Shown here: positions 41,549-59,452 of the stretch, one piece after another
How positions within the stretch are numbered: the first letter of the stretch is position 1
How the letters are laid out: each line of letters begins with the position of its first letter
Origin: Microbacterium testaceum
Lineage (GTDB): Bacteria; Actinomycetota; Actinomycetes; Actinomycetales; Microbacteriaceae
DNA: 64,000 nucleotides
Assembly (NCBI RefSeq): GCF_020781835.1
Contig: NZ_JAJGNJ010000012.1
Location: 1-64,000, forward strand
Direction: 5' to 3'
Translations under genes and position numbers: made by a program
Notes under the pieces: generated by a model
The model's input: the letters and a program-made list of their open reading frames with translations, nothing else
Told to the model about the DNA's origin: nothing
Databases searched by the model: none

Positions 41549-41736
41549 GGTCCGGCTGTCGCCCATTCCCGCGATCGCTGGACGCTGATCCTTCTCGACG
41601 GAAGGCCCGTTGCGATTCCGCAGCGCGCCGAAGCACCTCGTGACGTGCGAGCTCGCCACGGTCGAGTCTTCCGGGGCACGTTCGTACGCGTGACGCTCCG
41701 CATGCTCTGTGAGCGATCGAGGAACGGCTATGTGTG

Positions 41737-41809
41737 TGGGCCCCGTGGGGCTCGAACCCACGACCCGCGGATTAAAAGTCCGATGCTCTACCGACTGAGC
41801 TAGAGGCCC
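41737..41809 (-). tRNA. tRNA-Lys (UUU)
   Basis: A complete 73-nt cloverleaf on the minus strand: acceptor GGGCCTC pairing with GGGGCCC (forward 41738-41744), D-arm AGCTCAGTCGGTAGAGC, anticodon loop ACTTTTAAT with UUU, T-arm GTGGGTTCGAGCCCCAC, discriminator A. CCA is not encoded. Confidence 0.97.
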
Positions 41810-50392: not shown

Positions 50393-50410
50393 GGTGAACG
50401 GAAGGTGAAC
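50393..50410 (-). promoter_or_regulatory. PHO-box-like direct repeat (PhoP site)
   Basis: On the minus strand, GTTCACC at 50410-50404 and again at 50399-50393, an 11-bp pitch as in actinobacterial PHO boxes (GTTCACC-N4 repeats). It is 100 bp upstream of pstS and 51 bp upstream of the divergent NRPS gene, so it may regulate both. phoP/phoR are not in the window. Confidence 0.65.
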
Positions 50411-50460
50411 CGGTGCGGCCGTTCCGGGGTGTTTTCCCGGCGCGTATACGCTTCACCCCC

Positions 50461-53400
50461 GTGACGACCCCCGCGTTCTCCGCCCAGGCGGTGCTCGACC
50501 GCTCCCGCGCAGCCACGCCGCCGCGTACGCTCATCGACATCCTCGCCGACGTGGCATCCCGGCATCCGGAGGCCTCCGCGATCGACGACGGCTCGGGCGC
50601 CCTCAGCTACCGGGAACTCCTCGCTCGCGTGTGGCGCACCGCGGCGGCGCTGCACGCGGCGGGTGTGCGTCGCGGGGACCGGGTCGGTGTGCGGATGCCG
50701 TCGGGGTCGAAGGAGCTGTACGTCTCGATCCTCGCGGTGATGGCGGCGGGCGCCGCATACGTGCCGGTGGATGCCGACGACCCGGACGAGCGCGCACGTC
50801 TGGTGTTCGGCGAGGCCGGGGTGAAAGGCATCGTCGCCGGCGACGGCGAGTTCGTCGCGGGCGACGATCAGCTCGTGCGCCTCTACGACGGCGAGGCTCC
50901 CCACCCGAGCACGAGCGCGGTGCCGACCGTGGCCCCGCCGACCGTGGACGATGACGCATGGATCATCTTCACGTCCGGGTCGACCGGCGTGCCCAAGGGG
51001 GTCGCGGTGACGCACCGGTCGGCGGCTGCCTTCGTCGAGGCGGAGGCGCGCCTGTTCCTGCGGGACGACCCGCTCGGCCCGGGGGACCGCGTCCTCGCGG
51101 GACTGTCCGTGGCGTTCGACGCGTCGTGCGAGGAGATGTGGCTCGCGTGGGGCCACGGTGCGTGCCTCGTGCCCGCCCCCCGGTCTCTCGTGCGTTCGGG
51201 CGAGGACCTGGCGCCGTGGCTGCTGCGCCAGGGCATCTCGGTCGTCTCGACCGTGCCGACGCTCGCGGCGATGTGGCCGGCCGACTCGATCGAGAACGTT
51301 CGCCTGCTGATCTTCGGGGGCGAGGCCTGCCCACCCGAACTGGCGGCACGGCTGGTGGCCGACGGGCGCGAGGTGTGGAACACCTACGGACCCACCGAGG
51401 CGACGGTCGTGGCGTGCGCCGCGCCGCTGGACGGCACTCCACCCGTGCGCATCGGACTGCCCCTCGACGGGTGGACGCTCGCGGTCGTCGACGGCGAGGG
51501 ACGACCGGTGGCCGAGGGCGACGTGGGGGAACTCATCATCGGGGGAGTGGGCCTGGCACGGTACCTCGATCCGGCCAAGGATGCCGAGAAGTACGCGCCC
51601 ATGCCGACGCTGGGGTGGGAACGTGCCTATCGGTCCGGGGACCTCGTCCGCTTCGAACCCCAGGGCCTGGTCTTCCAGGGGCGCGCCGACGACCAGGTGA
51701 AGGTCGGGGGGCGCCGCATCGAGCTGGGCGAGGTCGAGGCCGCGCTGCAGGATCTGCCCCGGGTCCACGCCGCCACCGTCGCCGTCCGCGAGACCGAGGC
51801 GGGCGTCCCGGTGCTCGTGGGCTACCTGGTGATGTACGAGGGCGTCGAGCTCGACCGCGCCGCCGCGCGCGCTGCGCTCGCGGACCGCCTCCCCGCGGCG
51901 ACCATCCCCCTCCTCGGGGTGGTCGACGAGCTTCCGGTGCGAACCTCGGGCAAGGTCGACCGGGCGGCGCTTCCGTGGCCGCTCCCCGGCGTCGACGCCC
52001 CGGCGGCGACGGATTTCTCCGCCGACGAGGCGTGGCTCGCCGAGCAGTGGCAGGCCGTGCTCGGACTGGCGGTCACCGATCGCAAGGCCGACTTCTTCGA
52101 CCTCGGGGGAGGGTCGCTCTCGGCGGCGCAACTGGTCTCGCGCATCCGCGCCCGGGTCCCGGAGTTCTCCGTCGCCGACATCTACGATGTGCCGCGTCTG
52201 GGCGCCATGGCCAAGGCGCTCGGTCCGCAGCTGAACGACGACGCCCCCGCAGCGTTCCACCGGCCGACACCGACGCCCCGTACGACCCAGTGGGCGCAGA
52301 CCCTGCTGGGGGCGCCGCTGTTCATCCTGTCGGGGGTGCGCTGGCTGCTCTACCTGCTCACGGCCTCGGCGATCCTCCGGCTCATCCCGGGCTTCGACGT
52401 GCTGCCCACCCTCCCCTGGCCCCTGCTCCTGCTGGGACTGGTGCTGTTCGCCACCCCGTTCGGGCGCATGGCGATCGCCGTCATCTCGGCGCGGGTCCTG
52501 CTGGCGGGGCTGCGGCCGGGCGACTACCCGCGCGGGGGCGGGGTGCACGTGCGCCTGTGGCTGGCCGAACAGATCGCCGCGCAGGTCGACGCCGTGGGTC
52601 TCGCCGGGGCGCCGTGGGTGTCGTACTACGCCCGCGCTCTCGGCGCCCGCATCGGCCGTAATGTCGACCTTCACGCGCTGCCCCCGGTGACGGGGATGCT
52701 CGAGATCGGCGACGGCGCGTCGATCGAACCCGAGGTCGACCTCACGGGGTACTGGATCGACGGCGACCTCGTCCGCATCGGCGAGGTGCGGATCGGATCG
52801 GATGCCACCGTCGGCGCACGCTCCACTCTCGCACCGGGCACACGCATCGGGCGACGGGCGGAGATCGCGCCGGGGTCGGCGGTGTTCGGACGCGTCAAGG
52901 CCGACCAGTCGTGGGCCGGCTCGCCGGCCGTCCGGGTCGGCGGCACCGCGAAGGACTGGCCGGACGAGCGACCCCCCGCACCGACACGGTGGCTCTGGGC
53001 CTACGCCGCGTCCGCCGTCGTGCTCTCCCTGCTCCCGCTGCTCTCCTTCGCGGTGGGCGGCCTCGTCATCGCACAGGGCCTGCGCGGGGCCGGGTCGCTG
53101 GCGGCGGCGGCCGGAGCCGCCTTCGTCTGGCTGGTGCCCGCTGTCGCCGTCACCGGCCTGGTGTTCGCGGCGTCGGTCGTGCTGCTCGTGCGCGTCTTCT
53201 CGCTCGGGCTGGTGGAGGGCACCTTCCCCGTGCGCAGCCGTGTCGCCTGGCAGGCATGGACGATCGAGCGTCTGCTGGACGCGGCCCGCACGATCCTGTT
53301 CCCGCTGTACTCGAGCCTGTTCACTCCGGTGTGGCTGCGTATGCTCGGCGCGCGCGTCGGCCGTGACGTCGAGGCATCCACGGTCCTGCTCCTGCCGACG

Positions 53401-54399
53401 ATGACGCGGATCGAGGACGGGGCGTTCCTCGCCGACGACACGATGGTGGCCTCCTACGAACTGCGCGCCGGGTGGCTGCGCGTGGGGTCCGTGCGCATCG
53501 GCAAGCGGGCGTTCCTCGGCAATTCCGGGATGGCGGCCCCCGATCACCGCGTACCGCGCGACGGTCTGGTCGCAGTGCTGTCGGCGGCGCCGCTGAAAGC
53601 CAAACCAGGATCGTCGTGGCTCGGCTCACCGGCCGTGCGCCTTCGGCGACTGTCGGCGGAAGGCGACGAGTCGCGCACCTACCGCCCGACGCCCGGGCTG
53701 CGACTCGCCCGCACGCTCTGGGAACTCGGCCGGTTCGTGCCCGTCGTCGCGACGTGCGCGATCGGACTCGGGGTGCTGTTCGCGCTCGCCGGGCTCTGGG
53801 AGGCGACGGGGCCGGTGTGGACGCTCCTGCTCTCCGGGGTCGTGCTGCTGGTGGCCGGAGCGCTCGCCGCGGCCGTGTCGACGCTGGCGAAGTGGGCGAT
53901 CGTCGGCGTCATCCGCGCGGGCGAGCAACCACTGTGGTCGAGCTTCGTGTGGCGCACCGAGGTGTCGGACACGTTCACCGAGATGGTCGCGGCGCCCTGG
54001 TTCGCCAGGGCCGCCGCAGGCACCCCGGCACTGGCCGTCTGGCTGCGCAGTCTGGGCGCTCGGATCGGCCGCGGCGTCTGGTGCGAGAGCTACTGGCTGC
54101 CCGAGCCCGATCTCGTGAGGCTGGGGGACGCGTCGACGGTCAACCGCGGGTGCGTCGTCCAGACCCACCTCTTCCATGATCGAATCATGAGTATGGACAC
54201 CGTCGAGCTCGAACCCGGTGCGACCCTGGGGCCGCACAGCGTGGTTCTCCCCGCATCGACCCTCGGTGCGCATGCCACCGTGGGTCCCGCGTCGCTCGTC
54301 ATGCGCGGAGAGACCGTTCCCGTCGGGTCGCGCTGGAGCGGCAACCCCATCGGACCGTGGCGCGCGGTGAAGGTGCGCGCCTACCAGTCGACCACGTGA
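50461..54399 (+). CDS. Pls/PosA-family single-module NRPS with membrane and hexapeptide domains
   Basis: A 1312-residue protein. The adenylation domain (about 1-500) has FTSGSTGVPKGV near 170, NTYGPTEATV, YRSGDL, GRADDQVKVGGRRIELGEVE and RTSGKVDR. The carrier domain has its phosphopantetheine Ser552 in LGGGSLSA. From about 610 to the end, three units combine paired helices with left-handed beta-helix hexapeptide repeats. There is no condensation or thioesterase domain. Length and layout match poly-epsilon-lysine synthetase (Pls) and relatives that polymerise a basic amino acid across the membrane. The GTG at 50461 is the homology start, with TACGCT eight bases upstream. Confidence 0.9.
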   Translation: MTTPAFSAQAVLDRSRAATPPRTLIDILADVASRHPEASAIDDGSGALSYRELLARVWRTAAALHAAGVRRGDRVGVRMPSGSKELYVSILAVMAAGAAYVPVDADDPDERARLVFGEAGVKGIVAGDGEFVAGDDQLVRLYDGEAPHPSTSAVPTVAPPTVDDDAWIIFTSGSTGVPKGVAVTHRSAAAFVEAEARLFLRDDPLGPGDRVLAGLSVAFDASCEEMWLAWGHGACLVPAPRSLVRSGEDLAPWLLRQGISVVSTVPTLAAMWPADSIENVRLLIFGGEACPPELAARLVADGREVWNTYGPTEATVVACAAPLDGTPPVRIGLPLDGWTLAVVDGEGRPVAEGDVGELIIGGVGLARYLDPAKDAEKYAPMPTLGWERAYRSGDLVRFEPQGLVFQGRADDQVKVGGRRIELGEVEAALQDLPRVHAATVAVRETEAGVPVLVGYLVMYEGVELDRAAARAALADRLPAATIPLLGVVDELPVRTSGKVDRAALPWPLPGVDAPAATDFSADEAWLAEQWQAVLGLAVTDRKADFFDLGGGSLSAAQLVSRIRARVPEFSVADIYDVPRLGAMAKALGPQLNDDAPAAFHRPTPTPRTTQWAQTLLGAPLFILSGVRWLLYLLTASAILRLIPGFDVLPTLPWPLLLLGLVLFATPFGRMAIAVISARVLLAGLRPGDYPRGGGVHVRLWLAEQIAAQVDAVGLAGAPWVSYYARALGARIGRNVDLHALPPVTGMLEIGDGASIEPEVDLTGYWIDGDLVRIGEVRIGSDATVGARSTLAPGTRIGRRAEIAPGSAVFGRVKADQSWAGSPAVRVGGTAKDWPDERPPAPTRWLWAYAASAVVLSLLPLLSFAVGGLVIAQGLRGAGSLAAAAGAAFVWLVPAVAVTGLVFAASVVLLVRVFSLGLVEGTFPVRSRVAWQAWTIERLLDAARTILFPLYSSLFTPVWLRMLGARVGRDVEASTVLLLPTMTRIEDGAFLADDTMVASYELRAGWLRVGSVRIGKRAFLGNSGMAAPDHRVPRDGLVAVLSAAPLKAKPGSSWLGSPAVRLRRLSAEGDESRTYRPTPGLRLARTLWELGRFVPVVATCAIGLGVLFALAGLWEATGPVWTLLLSGVVLLVAGALAAAVSTLAKWAIVGVIRAGEQPLWSSFVWRTEVSDTFTEMVAAPWFARAAAGTPALAVWLRSLGARIGRGVWCESYWLPEPDLVRLGDASTVNRGCVVQTHLFHDRIMSMDTVELEPGATLGPHSVVLPASTLGAHATVGPASLVMRGETVPVGSRWSGNPIGPWRAVKVRAYQSTT

Positions 54400-55694
54400 G
54401 CGGGCCCGATCCGTACGCTCCGCTGAGCGGCGACGGCGGATACCGTGTCGAGTCGTACGACCTCGCGCTGAGCTATCGGGTGCGTACGAACCGCCTCGAA
54501 GGCACGGCTGTGATCGCAGCCGTGGCCGAGGAGGATCTCGCAGCCGTGTCTCTGGACCTCGTCGGTCTTCGTGCCTCGCGCGCGCGCATCGGCGGTGCTC
54601 CCGCCCGCTTCTCCGCCGCGGCCGGGAAGCTGAGGGTCACGCCCGCGCAACCGATCGCCGCGGGCGAGCCGTTCGAGGTCGAGGTCGTCTACGCCGGGGC
54701 GCCCGCCCCGCGTCGTTCGCGCTGGGGCATGGTCGGCTGGGAGGAGCTCGCCGACGGGGCTTTGGTGGCCGGCCAGCCCATCGGCGCTCCCACGTGGTTC
54801 CCCTGCAACGACCGACCCGACGCCCGCGCCCGCATGACCATGCGGGTCACCGTCGACGAGGGGTACGAGGTCGCGGCCACCGGCGTCGCCGGGCCGCCCC
54901 GTCGCCGCGGCGGCCGTGTCACGACGACCTTCACCTCGAACGTTCCGACCGCCACCTACCTCGCGGCCGTCCACGTGGGCCGGTACCGGACGCGACCGGT
55001 CGCGGGATCCGGCGACGGCGTCGTGCCCCCCGTGACGGTGACCGCTCCGCCCGCCCTCTCCGCGGCGGCCGATCGGGCATTCGCCCCCGTGCCCGAGATG
55101 TTGCGGGTCTTCGACGATTTCTTCGGCCCGTATCCGCAAGAGGCCTGCACGCTCGTCGTCACCGCCGATGAGCTGGAGATCCCGCTCGAGGCGCAGGGTC
55201 TCGCCGTCTTCGGCATGAACCACCTCGTTCCCGCCGCGGAGCGTCTGATCGCGCACGAGCTCGCGCACCAGTGGTTCGGCAACAGTGTCGGGATCGCGCG
55301 CTGGAGCGACATCTGGCTGAACGAGGGTTTCGCCTGCTATGCGGAGTGGCTGTGGTCGGAGGCATCCGGGAGCCGGACCGCCGACGACTGCGTCCGCGCT
55401 CACTACGCGCGTCTGGCCGCGAAGCCCCGAGACCTGCTGCTGGTGGACCCGGGGCCGGACGACATGTTCGACGACCGCGTCTACAAGCGCGGGGCGATCG
55501 CCCTCCACGCCCTGCGGAAGCATCTCGGCGACGGGTCCTTCTTCGGTCTGGTGCGCGGGTGGACGTCCACCCACCGGCATTCACTCGTGAGCACCGACGA
55601 CTTCCGCGCCGCCGTGCGCGAGGCGGGCGGACCGGATGCCACCGAGCTGCTGTCGCGCTGGATCGAACGCGCCGAACTCCCGCCGCTGCCCTGA
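54396..55694 (+). CDS. M1-family zinc metallopeptidase
   Basis: A 432-residue peptidase with HELAHQWFGN and, 19 residues on, NEGFACYAE, which together give the M1 zinc site (HExxH-x18-E). The catalytic-domain segment precedes a short C-terminal part; length is short for aminopeptidase N. It overlaps the NRPS stop by 4 bp (GTGA), so the two are coupled. Secreted or membrane-associated M1-type enzymes degrade poly-lysine in producers; here no signal peptide is visible, so it may hydrolyse polymer internally or trim the product. Inferred from linkage. Confidence 0.85.
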   Translation: MSGPDPYAPLSGDGGYRVESYDLALSYRVRTNRLEGTAVIAAVAEEDLAAVSLDLVGLRASRARIGGAPARFSAAAGKLRVTPAQPIAAGEPFEVEVVYAGAPAPRRSRWGMVGWEELADGALVAGQPIGAPTWFPCNDRPDARARMTMRVTVDEGYEVAATGVAGPPRRRGGRVTTTFTSNVPTATYLAAVHVGRYRTRPVAGSGDGVVPPVTVTAPPALSAAADRAFAPVPEMLRVFDDFFGPYPQEACTLVVTADELEIPLEAQGLAVFGMNHLVPAAERLIAHELAHQWFGNSVGIARWSDIWLNEGFACYAEWLWSEASGSRTADDCVRAHYARLAAKPRDLLLVDPGPDDMFDDRVYKRGAIALHALRKHLGDGSFFGLVRGWTSTHRHSLVSTDDFRAAVREAGGPDATELLSRWIERAELPPLP

Positions 55695-55709
55695 CCCTGA
55701 CACTGCTGT

Positions 55710-55791
55710 CGCACAACCTCAGTGATCCGCACAGGATCCGTTCGCGGGGGCGGCGAAGGAGTGAGGTTGCGTGAATCACTGAGGTTGTGCG
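55710..55791. repeat. 17-bp perfect inverted repeat between convergent genes
   Basis: CGCACAACCTCAGTGAT (55710-55726) is exactly complementary to the sequence at 55775-55791, leaving a 48-nt loop. A third partial copy, GTGAGGTTGCG, lies inside the loop. The right arm runs into the 3' end of the PPTase coding sequence. It could be a bidirectional terminator, but its arm length and loop size are unusual for one. Confidence 0.7.
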
Positions 55792-56297
55792 CGGCTGGGC
55801 CGTCCGCCGAGCGCGAGAGCGACGAGCACACCGGGCGGCCCGTCGAGGTCCCACCCCGCGAGGAGTCCGCCCGCGTCGACCCGGCCGCTCCAGTGGGCAC
55901 CGGCAACGGCCTCGACCACGCGGACGCGACCCGGATCGACGGCGAGACCGCGACCGTCCGCCTTCAGCACCGCCTCGACGCGCGCCCACGATCGCGCATC
56001 CGCCCGGGGAAGCACCCGCTCCAGACCCCGGGCGTCGGCGGCGACGGCATCCACACCGATTCGGCGCCCGTGTCCATCGGCGGCGACGACCGCCCACCCC
56101 GCCGCGTACGAAACCGACACCGAGGCATCCGCTCCGATGACGTGCACCCGGCCGTGCGGGCCGCCGCAGCGCGGGCACCGCGACACGAAGGTCGCCGCGG
56201 GGTGCATCTCCTGGAGCAGCGCCCGCGAGACCGCGCGGCGCTCGACGCCTTCCGGGACGCGGCGCCACCTCAGGCGCACCTCGGCGGGGAGCGTCAC
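55776..56297 (-). CDS. 4'-phosphopantetheinyl transferase (Sfp-like, short)
   Basis: A 173-residue protein with CPRCGGPHGR in the first half, typical of Sfp/PcpS-type transferases, the core GVDAV and a WARVEAVLKADGRG helix that matches the W-x-x-K/V-E-A-x-x-K-x-x-G motif with Glu and Lys kept. It would add phosphopantetheine to the carrier domain of the NRPS encoded on the opposite strand next door. The GTG at 56297 overlaps the NUDIX gene's stop by 4 bp. It is shorter than most Sfp proteins (about 220 aa), mainly at the N-terminus. Confidence 0.8.
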   Translation of the reverse strand: MTLPAEVRLRWRRVPEGVERRAVSRALLQEMHPAATFVSRCPRCGGPHGRVHVIGADASVSVSYAAGWAVVAADGHGRRIGVDAVAADARGLERVLPRADARSWARVEAVLKADGRGLAVDPGRVRVVEAVAGAHWSGRVDAGGLLAGWDLDGPPGVLVALALGGRPSRAQPQ

Positions 56298-57232
56298 ACC
56301 TGCGGCTCGTGCGTCTCGATCGCGACGATGCCCGACCCGGGATGGGCGACGGGGATGTGGGCCACCGAGAACCCCGCCGGCTCGAGCGCCGACGAGCTGC
56401 CCAGGTAGGACCCGCGCATCGTCCCGGTGGCCAGCGCCAGCTCGTGCATGATGTCCGGGAGCACGGGGCCGTGGCTCACCAGGACCACCGGCTTGCGGGC
56501 GCGGACGCGCTCGCCGACGACCGCCCGCGCATCGCTGCGCCCCTCTTCCCACGCGTCCTGACTGATCGCCTCGGTGAGCTGAACACGCTGGGCGAGCGCG
56601 GCCGACAGCGGCGTCACGGTCCGCACGCAGCGTTCCGCGGGACTGGACACGATCCGCCGGATCCCGAACGCCAGGAGCGGCCCGACGATCGCGTCGGCCT
56701 GACGGCGGCCCCGCGTGCTGAGCGGTCGAGCGGCGTCCGCCCCGTCCCACTCGTCCCGCGGGCGCGCCTTCGCGTGCCGCAGCGCGACGACGGGGAATGT
56801 CGGGAGGGCCTGCTCGTCGATGAGGCGCACGAACTCGTCGAGGATCTCGATGTCGACCGGGTAGCTGAGGTGTTTGCGTGCCTTCTTCAGCCCCACCCAC
56901 TCGATCGCCGCGATCTCCTTGTTGGGGACGAACGTCGAGGTCCGCACGGCGGCGTCGGTCGCCTCGGCCGCCCAGTAGTGCACGATCTTGGTTCGAGAAC
57001 TCGGCATCCGGTAGCGCGAGACGCCCACGGGCACACCGAGGGCGACCCGGATGCCGGTCTCCTCGCGGATCTCGCGCACGGCGGTCTCGGCGAGCGTCTC
57101 GCCGGGGTCGACCTTGCCCTTGGGCAGCGTCACGTCGCGGTACTTGGTGCGATGGATCAGCAGGACACGGTACTTGCCCTCGACCATGCGCCAGACCACG
57201 CCGCCAGCCGCGTAGACGGCGGTTTCCGTCAC
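56294..57232 (-). CDS. NUDIX hydrolase fused to a histidine phosphatase (SixA/phosphoglycerate-mutase-like)
   Basis: A 312-residue fusion. The N-terminal NUDIX box is [22 protein letters not shown] (G-x5-E-x7-REUxEExGU). The C-terminal histidine phosphatase domain has [10 protein letters not shown] with the RHA motif in place of RHG, and [10 protein letters not shown]. Such fusions (MutT/Sco-like) are common in actinobacteria and act on oxidised nucleotides or dinucleoside polyphosphates; substrate is not evident. GTG at 57232 overlaps the ppk1 stop by 4 bp. The operon is ppk1 - NUDIX/SixA - PPTase. Confidence 0.88.
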
Positions 57233-59397
57233 CGGACCGCCCGCGAACGGCGCTTGCGCTGGACCTGTGCCATCGTGCGCTCCTGGAGGTCGATCAGCGG
57301 GACTCCGTCGGCGTCCACGCTGTGCCGCGTCCACTCGCCCTCGGGTCCGAGGTGCCACGAGCTCGTGCGGTCGTCCATCGCGAGATCGAACAGATCGGAC
57401 AGCTCCTGGATCTGCTTCGGATCGATGACGCGCACGAGCGCTTCGACACGGCGGTCGAGGTTGCGGTGCATCATGTCGGCGCTGCCGATGAACACCTGCG
57501 GATCGCCGTCGTTGACGAATGTGAAGATGCGCGAGTGCTCGAGGTAGCGGCCGAGGATCGACCGGACGCGGATGTTCTCGCTCATGCCCTCGACGCCGGG
57601 CTTGATGGAGCAGATGCCGCGTACCCACACCTCGACCGGGACACCCGCCTGGCTCGCCCGGTAGAGCGCGTCGATGATCTGCTCGTCGACCATCGAGTTG
57701 ACCTTGATGCGCACGCCCGAGGGCTTGCCCGCGAGGGCGTTGGCGCGCTCTCGCTCGATGTGACGGACCAGTCCCTTCCGCAGGTGCAGGGGGGCGACGA
57801 GCAGACGCTTGAACTTCTTCTCGATCGCGTAGCCGCTGAGCTCGTTGAACAGACGTGTGAGGTCGCGACCGACCTGGTCGTCGACCGTGAACAGTCCGAA
57901 GTCCTCGTAGATGCGGCTGGTCTTCGGGTTGTAGTTCCCCGTGCCGACGTGACTGTAGTGGCGCAGTCGCCCCTCTTCCTCGCGGATGACGAGCGCGAGC
58001 TTGCAGTGGGTCTTGAGCCCCACGAGGCCGTAGACGACGTGGACGCCGGCCTTCTCCAGCATGCGCGCCCACACGATGTTGTTCGCCTCGTCGAATCGCG
58101 CCTTCACCTCGACCAGCGCCAGCACCTGCTTCCCGGCCACAGCGGCGTCGATGAGCGCCTGCACGATGGGGCTGTCGCCCGACGTGCGGTACAGCGTCTG
58201 CTTGATGGCCAGGACGTTCGGGTCTTTCGCTGCCTGTTCGAGGAACGCCTGGACACTGGTGGCGAAAGATTCGTAGGGGTGGTGCACGAGCACGTCGCCC
58301 TTGCGGATCGCGCCGAAGATGTCGGCGCGGCCGTTCTGCTCCGGCGGCTGGAACGCGAGGGCCGTCTTGGGCACATGCGGCGGGTAGTGCAGATCGGGGC
58401 GGTCGATGCGGGACAGGTCGAACAGGCCGCGCAGGTCGAGCGCGCCGGGCAGCCGGTACACCTCCTGCTCGGTGATGTCGAGCTCGCTGAGCAGCAGCTC
58501 GCGGGTCACGTCATCCATGTCCTCGGTGATCTCGAGGCGGATCGGCGGGCCGAAGCGGCGACGCAGCAGCTCCGCCTCGAGCGCCTGGATGAGGTTCTCG
58601 GTCTCGTCCTCCTCGATCGTGACGTCCTCGTTGCGCGTCAGCCGGAAGGCGTGGTGATCGAGCACCTCCATGCCCGGGAACAGATCGCCCAGGTGGTTCG
58701 AGATGAGCTCCTCGAGCGGAAGGTAGCGCACCCCCGGCCCGGTGCCGGGGACCTCGACGAACCGCGGGAGCATCGGCGGCACCTTCAGGCGCGCGAACTC
58801 CTGGCGGCCGGTGCGGGCGTTGCGGATGCGGATCGCGAGGTTCAGTGACAGGCCCGAGATGTACGGGAAGGGATGCGCGGGGTCGACGGCCAGCGGCATG
58901 AGAACGGGGAAGACGTTGCGCTGGAAGTACTCGGTGAGCCGCGCCGCGGAGTCCTCGTCGAGCGAGTCCCAGGACACGACCTCGATACCCGCCTCGGCGA
59001 GAGCGGGGCGCACCTGATCGGTCCACACGGCGGCGTGCCGCAACTGCAGGCGGTGGGCCTCGGCCGAGATGTCGGCGAGGACGTCCTGCGGTGCGCGGCC
59101 GACGTTGGTCGGCACGGCCAGCCCGGTGACGATGCGGCGCTTGAGTCCGGCGACGCGCACCATGAAGAACTCGTCGAGGTTGCTGGCGAAGATCGCGAGG
59201 AAGTTGGCCCGCTCCAGGACCGGGACCGTGGGATCTTCGGCCAGCTCGAGCACGCGCTGGTTGAACGCCAGCCAGCTGACCTCGCGGTCGAGATAGCGGT
59301 GGTCGGGGAGCTGCGCGTCCTCGGCCTCCACCGCCTCGTCGAAGTCGTCGTCGTCCGCGTCACCCAGGCCCGCGTCCAGCACGTCGTGTTCGATCAT
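57229..59397 (-). CDS. ppk1: polyphosphate kinase 1
   Basis: A 722-residue polyphosphate kinase that polymerises the gamma-phosphate of ATP. N-terminal [18 protein letters not shown] and [15 protein letters not shown], the [13 protein letters not shown] segment, [11 protein letters not shown] with the first autophosphorylation-site histidine, [20 protein letters not shown] and the later [14 protein letters not shown] are diagnostic. The ATG at 59397 is preferred over a GTG two codons upstream. It heads an operon with a NUDIX/phosphatase and a PPTase, near pst, giving a phosphate-storage theme. Confidence 0.97.
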
Positions 59398-59452
59398 CCC
59401 CACATCATTGCAGGGGTCGATGACGTGCGCGTGAACGGTTGCGCGGCGGGGC

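Follow-up and report, generated by a model that had tools for sequence, protein, structure and literature searches.

Introduction

Epsilon-polylysine is an approved food preservative, and to our knowledge no product has been shown for most pls clusters outside Streptomyces. In Streptomyces albulus, the gene pldII overlaps pls by 4 bp within one operon and its product is reported to be the main degrading enzyme (PMC4361855, PMC9223678); PldII is further described as located outside the membrane (PMC9223678). The Pls of Corynebacterium variabile is reported as proven by expression in Streptomyces coelicolor under the S. albulus promoter, and the same account gives no detectable polymer in the culture of C. 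variabile itself, nor with pls in C. glutamicum (PMC8117764). Microbacterium is named there among the genera with Pls homologues (PMC8117764), and together with a second report this account places Pls in Corynebacterium, Brevibacterium, Arthrobacter, Microbacterium and others (PMC8117764, PMC12067966), so that the novelty outside Streptomyces implied by an initial annotation of the present locus does not hold. Predicted epsilon-poly-L-lysine clusters are listed for Microbacterium canaveralium, M. jepli, Agrococcus phoenicis and Leifsonia (PMC12067966). The Pls/PosA family is presented as widespread, and a pseudo-threefold arrangement of beta-helices has already been proposed for PosA (PMC10522769).

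Here we analyse a 64,000-nucleotide stretch of Microbacterium testaceum DNA (the window), part of a 3.6-Mb genome assembled in 67 contigs, and describe in it a locus that, read from its sequence, is very probably a three-gene epsilon-poly-L-lysine cassette composed of Pls, an M1 peptidase and a PPTase. The domain anatomy, a lysine pocket, a gene overlap, the PPTase fold and co-occurrence are the observed basis of this reading.

Results

Layout of the locus

The locus and its flanks hold the following features, with coordinates in the window.

50393..50410, minus strand: PHO-box-like direct repeat (GTTCACC-N4-GTTCACC) between pls and pstS, oriented toward pstS; a neighbour element
50461..54399, plus strand: Pls/PosA-family synthetase gene (GTG start at 50461; 1312 aa)
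54396..55694, plus strand: M1 zinc metallopeptidase gene, probable PldII-type (PF01433, PF17900)
55776..56297, minus strand: short Sfp/PptT-like PPTase gene, probable activator of the Pls carrier (from its model, invariant residues and co-occurrence with Pls)
56294..57250, minus strand: NUDIX and histidine-phosphatase (MutT1-like) gene (NF052459 at 190 bits, below the 475-bit cut-off)

The M1 gene starts at a GTG that sits within the synthetase stop (GTGA at 54396-54399), giving a 4-bp overlap, and an in-frame GTG at 50413 is an alternative synthetase start. The PPTase gene runs on the minus strand from a GTG start at 56297 to a stop at 55776 and encodes 173 aa. These coordinates bear out the initial annotation, which had described a 1312-residue synthetase, an M1 gene coupled to it by 4 bp and an adjacent, facing PPTase; the convergent operon of which it spoke also stands, as the minus-strand PPTase gene faces pls-M1 and overlaps a NUDIX/phosphatase gene of its own strand.

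Two sets of loci were used for comparison. The 199 genomes of the family are a tool-drawn sample of a larger group, and 20 of them fall short of high completeness with low contamination; 83 places scored over the TIGR02353 cut-off, from which the omission of the own locus, a second copy in genome G187 and a split gene in genome G076 left 80 family loci. The 594 confirmed relatives are represented by their best 80, the 80 named loci, which are therefore biased to close kin; at least five of these lie on the same contigs as family loci.

On the PPTase side, the overlap is one of 4 bp with the end of the NUDIX/histidine-phosphatase gene, which lies directly upstream of the PPTase gene, and the genes for polyphosphate kinase, NUDIX/histidine-phosphatase and PPTase follow one another on one strand in an operon-like run (window 56294-59403, PPTase last). 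Relatives of the NUDIX/phosphatase and polyphosphate kinase genes are found near pls in 12 of the 80 named loci (the best 80 of 594) and in 0 of the 80 family loci; the NUDIX/histidine-phosphatase gene is a neighbour, outside the cassette.

Upstream of pls lies pstS, divergently oriented. The direct repeat between the two, which resembles a PHO box, is exact; a scan of the window that allowed up to 2 mismatches gave no other match. Phosphate control of pls was considered and rejected, since across loci the repeat tracks pstS rather than pls. With at most 1 mismatch it occurs in every one of the ten named loci (from the best 80 of 594) where pstS is close to pls, always beside pstS: it is 67-81 bp before pls in L114, L115, L118 and L121 (68 bp in the window), and 698-991 bp from pls, still beside pstS, in the six further loci. 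It was not found in L124 and L125, which are without pstS. Because the repeat stays beside pstS at those larger distances from pls, it most likely belongs to pstS.

Two further elements were observed. Between the convergent peptidase and PPTase genes lies an inverted repeat with 24-nt arms (window 55710-55791), whose 17-base unit has 15 genomic copies at up to 2 mismatches, several of them paired, versus 0 for the reversed control; it is a member of an interspersed repeat family. The sole tRNA gene found in the window is a tRNA-Lys (TTT) at 41736-41809, about 9 kb from the synthetase gene, and its closeness to a predicted polylysine synthetase is probably a coincidence.

The synthetase has a lysine-type pocket

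The TIGR02353 model (Pls/PosA terminal domain) scores 700.1 bits on the synthetase, well over its cut-off of 423.1, so the assignment is not due to chance; TIGR01733 scores 350 bits, and the Pfam matches are PF00501, PF00550 and PF00132. The protein is divided as follows.

About residues 8-509: adenylation domain
Residues 524-586: carrier domain, with an LGGGSL motif
Residues 611-1296: membrane part, made up of three pairs of helices and three domains of left-handed beta-helix

Neither a condensation nor a thioesterase domain was found with Pfam at E <= 0.1, where just AMP-binding, its C-terminal domain, PP-binding and two hexapeptide models matched. By hydropathy, the hydrophobic stretches fall into three groups, and the C-terminal 706 residues were modelled as three units of helix pair plus beta-helix (pLDDT 88.8), in keeping with six membrane helices in three pairs. 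The 50 Foldseek matches listed for this model, at E 6.7e-5 to 8.6e-4, comprise hexapeptide acyltransferases together with designed proteins of that fold.

The best solved relative is the epsilon-poly-L-lysine synthase 7WEW (610 bits; the next scores 424 bits), with 310 of 506 aligned positions identical (61%), while the closest synthetase among the named relatives listed is that of Microbacterium sp. T32, at 93% identity. Read by motif positions in the Stachelhaus numbering, the adenylation pocket is DAESIGTVVK and equals that of 7WEW at all ten aligned positions. The same code is found in 157 of 161 Pls sequences, the others being DAESVGTVVK (two) and DFECLSVVTK (two). At pocket position 2, alanine is reported for Lys enzymes, methionine for the Orn enzyme PosA and phenylalanine for PDAP/PDAB enzymes (PMC10522769). 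Since the pocket is identical to that of 7WEW and has alanine at this position, we predict lysine as the substrate, the pocket being of the lysine type for diamino acids. The comparison with Pls that the initial annotation had proposed thus excludes a pocket incompatible with amino acids, and the product residue, which it had held to be unreadable from sequence, becomes predictable.

The Pls/PosA family does span several monomers (PMC10522769), and the enzyme might instead take ornithine, diaminobutyrate or beta-lysine and make a different polymer. We consider this highly improbable, because a code that agrees with 7WEW at ten out of ten positions differs from the DMEHNGTVSK of PosA and from the DFECLSVVTK of the second copies, in a comparison that covered the Lys, Orn and PDAP/PDAB codes. 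A non-lysine substrate was accordingly rejected on the pocket, and lysine is the predicted monomer.

The two loci with DFECLSVVTK, L110 and L113, are second Pls/PosA copies in genomes G134 and G071; these paralogues are about 24% identical to the own synthetase in the C-terminal part and possibly make a different polymer. At G076:C1:2188642-2190701, the Pls terminal domain is matched across two overlapping frames, and this gene is probably frameshifted.

An M1 peptidase accompanies lysine-type synthetases

With 93.9 bits for Peptidase_M1, over the Pfam cut-off of 27.7, the M1 assignment is likewise not a matter of chance. Among solved structures the closest relative, at 216.6 bits, is 6A8Z from Deinococcus ('zinc metalloprotease, putative'), and HExxH-18-E is intact in all 159 M1 proteins examined, the own one included. 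Of the 160 loci, 158 have an M1 gene that follows pls in the same orientation (78/80 family loci and 80/80 named loci, the latter the best 80 of 594); in L156, L159, L160, L172 and L187 it lies roughly 0.5-2 kb further downstream. The two genes share an NTGA overlap in 90 of the 158 pairs; this simple overlap is absent in the other 68. The only loci without an M1 gene, L110 and L113, are the second copies with a non-lysine pocket and serve as an internal control: as the gene is absent just beside these, the peptidase follows the lysine type. By analogy of gene order, overlap and M1 type, the protein is a probable PldII-type polymer-degrading enzyme.

M1 enzymes are common housekeeping enzymes, and in this protein hydropathy revealed no stretch hydrophobic enough to suggest a signal peptide or a membrane helix (maximum KD19 1.51), as would be expected of an ordinary cytosolic aminopeptidase unconnected with the polymer. 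Such an origin is nevertheless very unlikely, given that the gene keeps its same-strand downstream position in nearly every locus and is missing only beside the non-lysine second copies, and that in S. albulus the overlapping pldII is reported to degrade the polymer and its repression to shift chain length (PMC4361855, PMC9223678). A PldII-type enzyme remains the probable reading.

The PPTase is of the Sfp/PptT type

The PPTase scores 17.4 bits with Pfam ACPS, under the 25-bit cut-off, and has no NCBIfam match; as its matches by PF01648, by NCBIfam and by phmmer in the PDB were too weak, a family profile was built. Its AlphaFold model (pLDDT 93.4) matches PptAb, PptT, Sfp and the aminoadipate-semialdehyde-dehydrogenase PPTase across the whole chain, with Z values of 11.6-15.2 (PptAb 6QYG: VIA Z 15.2, 160 aligned, rmsd 3.4; Sfp 4MRT: VIA Z 14.1, 150 aligned, rmsd 3.1) and 11-19% identity to the Sfp/PptT-type structures. 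AcpS, the single-lobed enzyme of primary metabolism with about 120 residues, matches no more than the second half of the model, with a best Z of 8.8 over 90 residues. Judged by its model, the PPTase is two-lobed and Sfp/PptT-like, not AcpS; the initial annotation had called it Sfp-like and had named a best match to AcpS as the finding that would speak against this, and it is the Sfp/PptT structures that match best. AcpS was rejected as its identity on the fold and on the presence of a separate AcpS-sized gene, whose PF01648 match on contig C33 is the one such match in the own genome.

In the family alignment, C41, H48, G49, D83, W104, E108, K112, G115 and G117 are invariant; D83, W104, E108 and K112, which belong to the two PPTase motifs, are kept in 104 of 104 rows, among which the own protein stands twice. 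At the third acidic position of GxDxE the own PPTase has V85 and therefore lacks the full three-acid metal site; this position is E in 96 of 104 rows, valine in T32 and alanine in RU1D. The PPTase is also the fastest-changing of five genes compared, with 64% identity to T32 versus 84-97% for the others. Against its two nearest relatives, T32 and RU1D, its dN/dS is 0.34 and 0.40, versus 0.07 and 0.09 for Pls and 0.13 and 0.21 for M1, both below the PPTase; against four more distant Microbacterium loci it is 0.53-0.71, with dS near saturation.

The loss of a metal ligand in the own protein and both nearest relatives, the rate of change and the dN/dS against the distant loci could be those of a decaying, non-functional PPTase in this strain, with AcpS or nothing activating Pls. 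We find this quite unlikely, since the reading frame is open, D, W, E and K are retained, the model is a confident Sfp/PptT fold and the dN/dS against the nearest two relatives is below 1. Moreover, human AASDHPPT is active despite a non-acid at the same third position of GxDxE. Judging from sequence, we read the own PPTase as functional but fast-changing, and as no pseudogene.

The PPTase follows Pls across genomes

Pls scores over the cut-off in 80 of the 199 family genomes, and the PPTase profile at E <= 1e-10 is matched in all 80 of these versus 9 of the 119 Pls-free ones (16 of 119 at E <= 1e-3). A Fisher test of Pls against PPTase treats genomes as independent, and the within-genus count is safer: across 19 genera of mixed Pls status, a strong PPTase match occurs in 27 of 27 Pls-positive and 4 of 28 Pls-free members, and in 16 of the 19 genera the PPTase follows Pls in every member. 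Of the 80 family pls loci, 70 contain the PPTase gene, as do 36 of the 80 named loci (the best 80 of 594). Among these 106 in-locus PPTases, 99 are downstream and convergent, six are on the upstream side on the same strand and one is further off. For the other 10 family loci the PPTase lies outside the stretch fetched, and those genomes have one elsewhere or at a second pls.

A regulator, transporter or resistance gene as a further cassette member was considered and rejected: any further gene family was confined to at most 12 of the 80 family loci, in a screen that omitted frames of <100 aa or with >40% overlap with core genes and whose clusters include spurious GC-rich frames. In the Pls-free genome G130, a short PPTase-profile match with a stop codon (G130:C8:26536-26763) looks like a remnant after cassette loss; its genus-mate G066 has both genes.

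For 52 of the 80 Pls-positive genomes, the search turned up just two PP-binding domains. In the own genome, which has one PPTase-profile match, they are a stand-alone carrier on contig C44, presumably the fatty-acid ACP, and Pls itself. These genomes, together with the position of the PPTase in most family pls loci, argue against a general activator of all secondary carriers whose adjacency to pls would be incidental. The other 28 Pls-positive genomes have more than two such domains, and among the 9 genomes that match the PPTase profile strongly but lack Pls, 7 have at least two (G014 4, G016 2, G019 5, G056 7, G135 4, G142 2 and G186 3; G079 and G133 have 1), as a general activator would lead one to expect. 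However, 110 genomes lack both Pls and a strong PPTase match, and 17 of these also have at least two PP-binding domains (counted by eye), so that other carriers there manage without a PPTase of this type. Taking both sides together, a general activator is unlikely, and the well-supported reading is that the PPTase is probably a dedicated activator of the Pls carrier.

Outside the family, where 27 of 28 genomes were covered, all 22 Pls genomes with a PPTase-less locus have at least two PF01648 enzymes, as do all 5 with a PPTase in the locus. Since the PPTase-less ones, mostly Nocardia, Rhodococcus, Tsukamurella and mycobacteria, have this second PF01648 enzyme, it could, whatever its type, serve Pls there.

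Discussion

For substrate use, carrier activation by the PPTase, polymer production and export, and M1 activity on the polymer, we infer the following steps. The PPTase would attach 4'-phosphopantetheine to the carrier serine of Pls, whose adenylation domain would activate L-lysine and load it on the phosphopantetheine arm. The membrane-embedded triple beta-helix part would then link lysines repeatedly via their epsilon-amino groups, the membrane part of Pls passing the growing chain out of the cell, and the co-translated M1 peptidase would trim or degrade the polymer, which would set chain length and protect the producer. By analogy with C. variabile, where polymer escaped detection both natively and with pls in C. 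glutamicum, the polylysine cassette may be silent; since pls and the PPTase gene are transcribed separately, a switch that keeps such clusters silent could lie in carrier activation.

The occurrence of Pls in Microbacterium (PMC8117764, PMC12067966), the peptidase partner with its overlap (PMC4361855) and the spread of the family (PMC10522769) are already known. A link between a PPTase and Pls was not found in the open-licence PubMed Central literature, including the available text of PMC4361855, PMC12067966, PMC11078813 and PMC8117764, and a dedicated PPTase as the third cassette gene is the probable, modest addition made here. A broader reading, to which we incline with some reserve, is that Microbacteriaceae and neighbouring Micrococcales carry a self-sufficient pls-peptidase-PPTase unit with a small, fast-evolving PPTase dedicated to one carrier, and that the T32-like Microbacterium PPTase works without one of its three acidic metal ligands. 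If true, a dedicated PPTase would be the component that has so far been lacking when these pathways are reconstructed in hosts without a suitable PPTase; in the two-carrier genomes, one enzyme and one carrier form a clean pair on which PPTase specificity can be studied, and the V85 lineage allows one to ask what number of metal ligands a PPTase requires.

Comparison with known systems

The own PPTase resembles Sfp, PptT and PptAb in its two-lobed fold, as modelled, and in the motif residues D, W, E and K, and departs from them in its length of 173 aa, its 11-19% identity and the replacement of one usual acidic ligand by valine. With PosA of A. baumannii the synthetase shares the family and the predicted triple left-handed beta-helix membrane domain (PMC10522769), whereas the PosA pocket is that for ornithine, DMEHNGTVSK; the word 'peptidase' is absent from the main text of that account of PosA.

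The clusters of PMC12067966 share genus or family and the synthetase with the present locus, and a conserved cluster architecture is claimed there; 'phosphopantethein' is absent from its main text. C. variabile Pls and its coryneform homologues are similar in architecture, lysine pocket and the peptidase gene in the operon (PMC8117764), but the available text of that account mentions no PPTase, and the product is proven there.

As in the pls-pldII pair of S. albulus, a Pls gene is followed by a metallopeptidase gene with a 4-bp overlap, and the pocket is that of 7WEW. Unlike PldII of S. albulus, which is described as external, the Microbacterium M1 protein is by hydropathy without a visible membrane or export signal, and, unlike in S. 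albulus, a PPTase gene here faces the pair as its third member.
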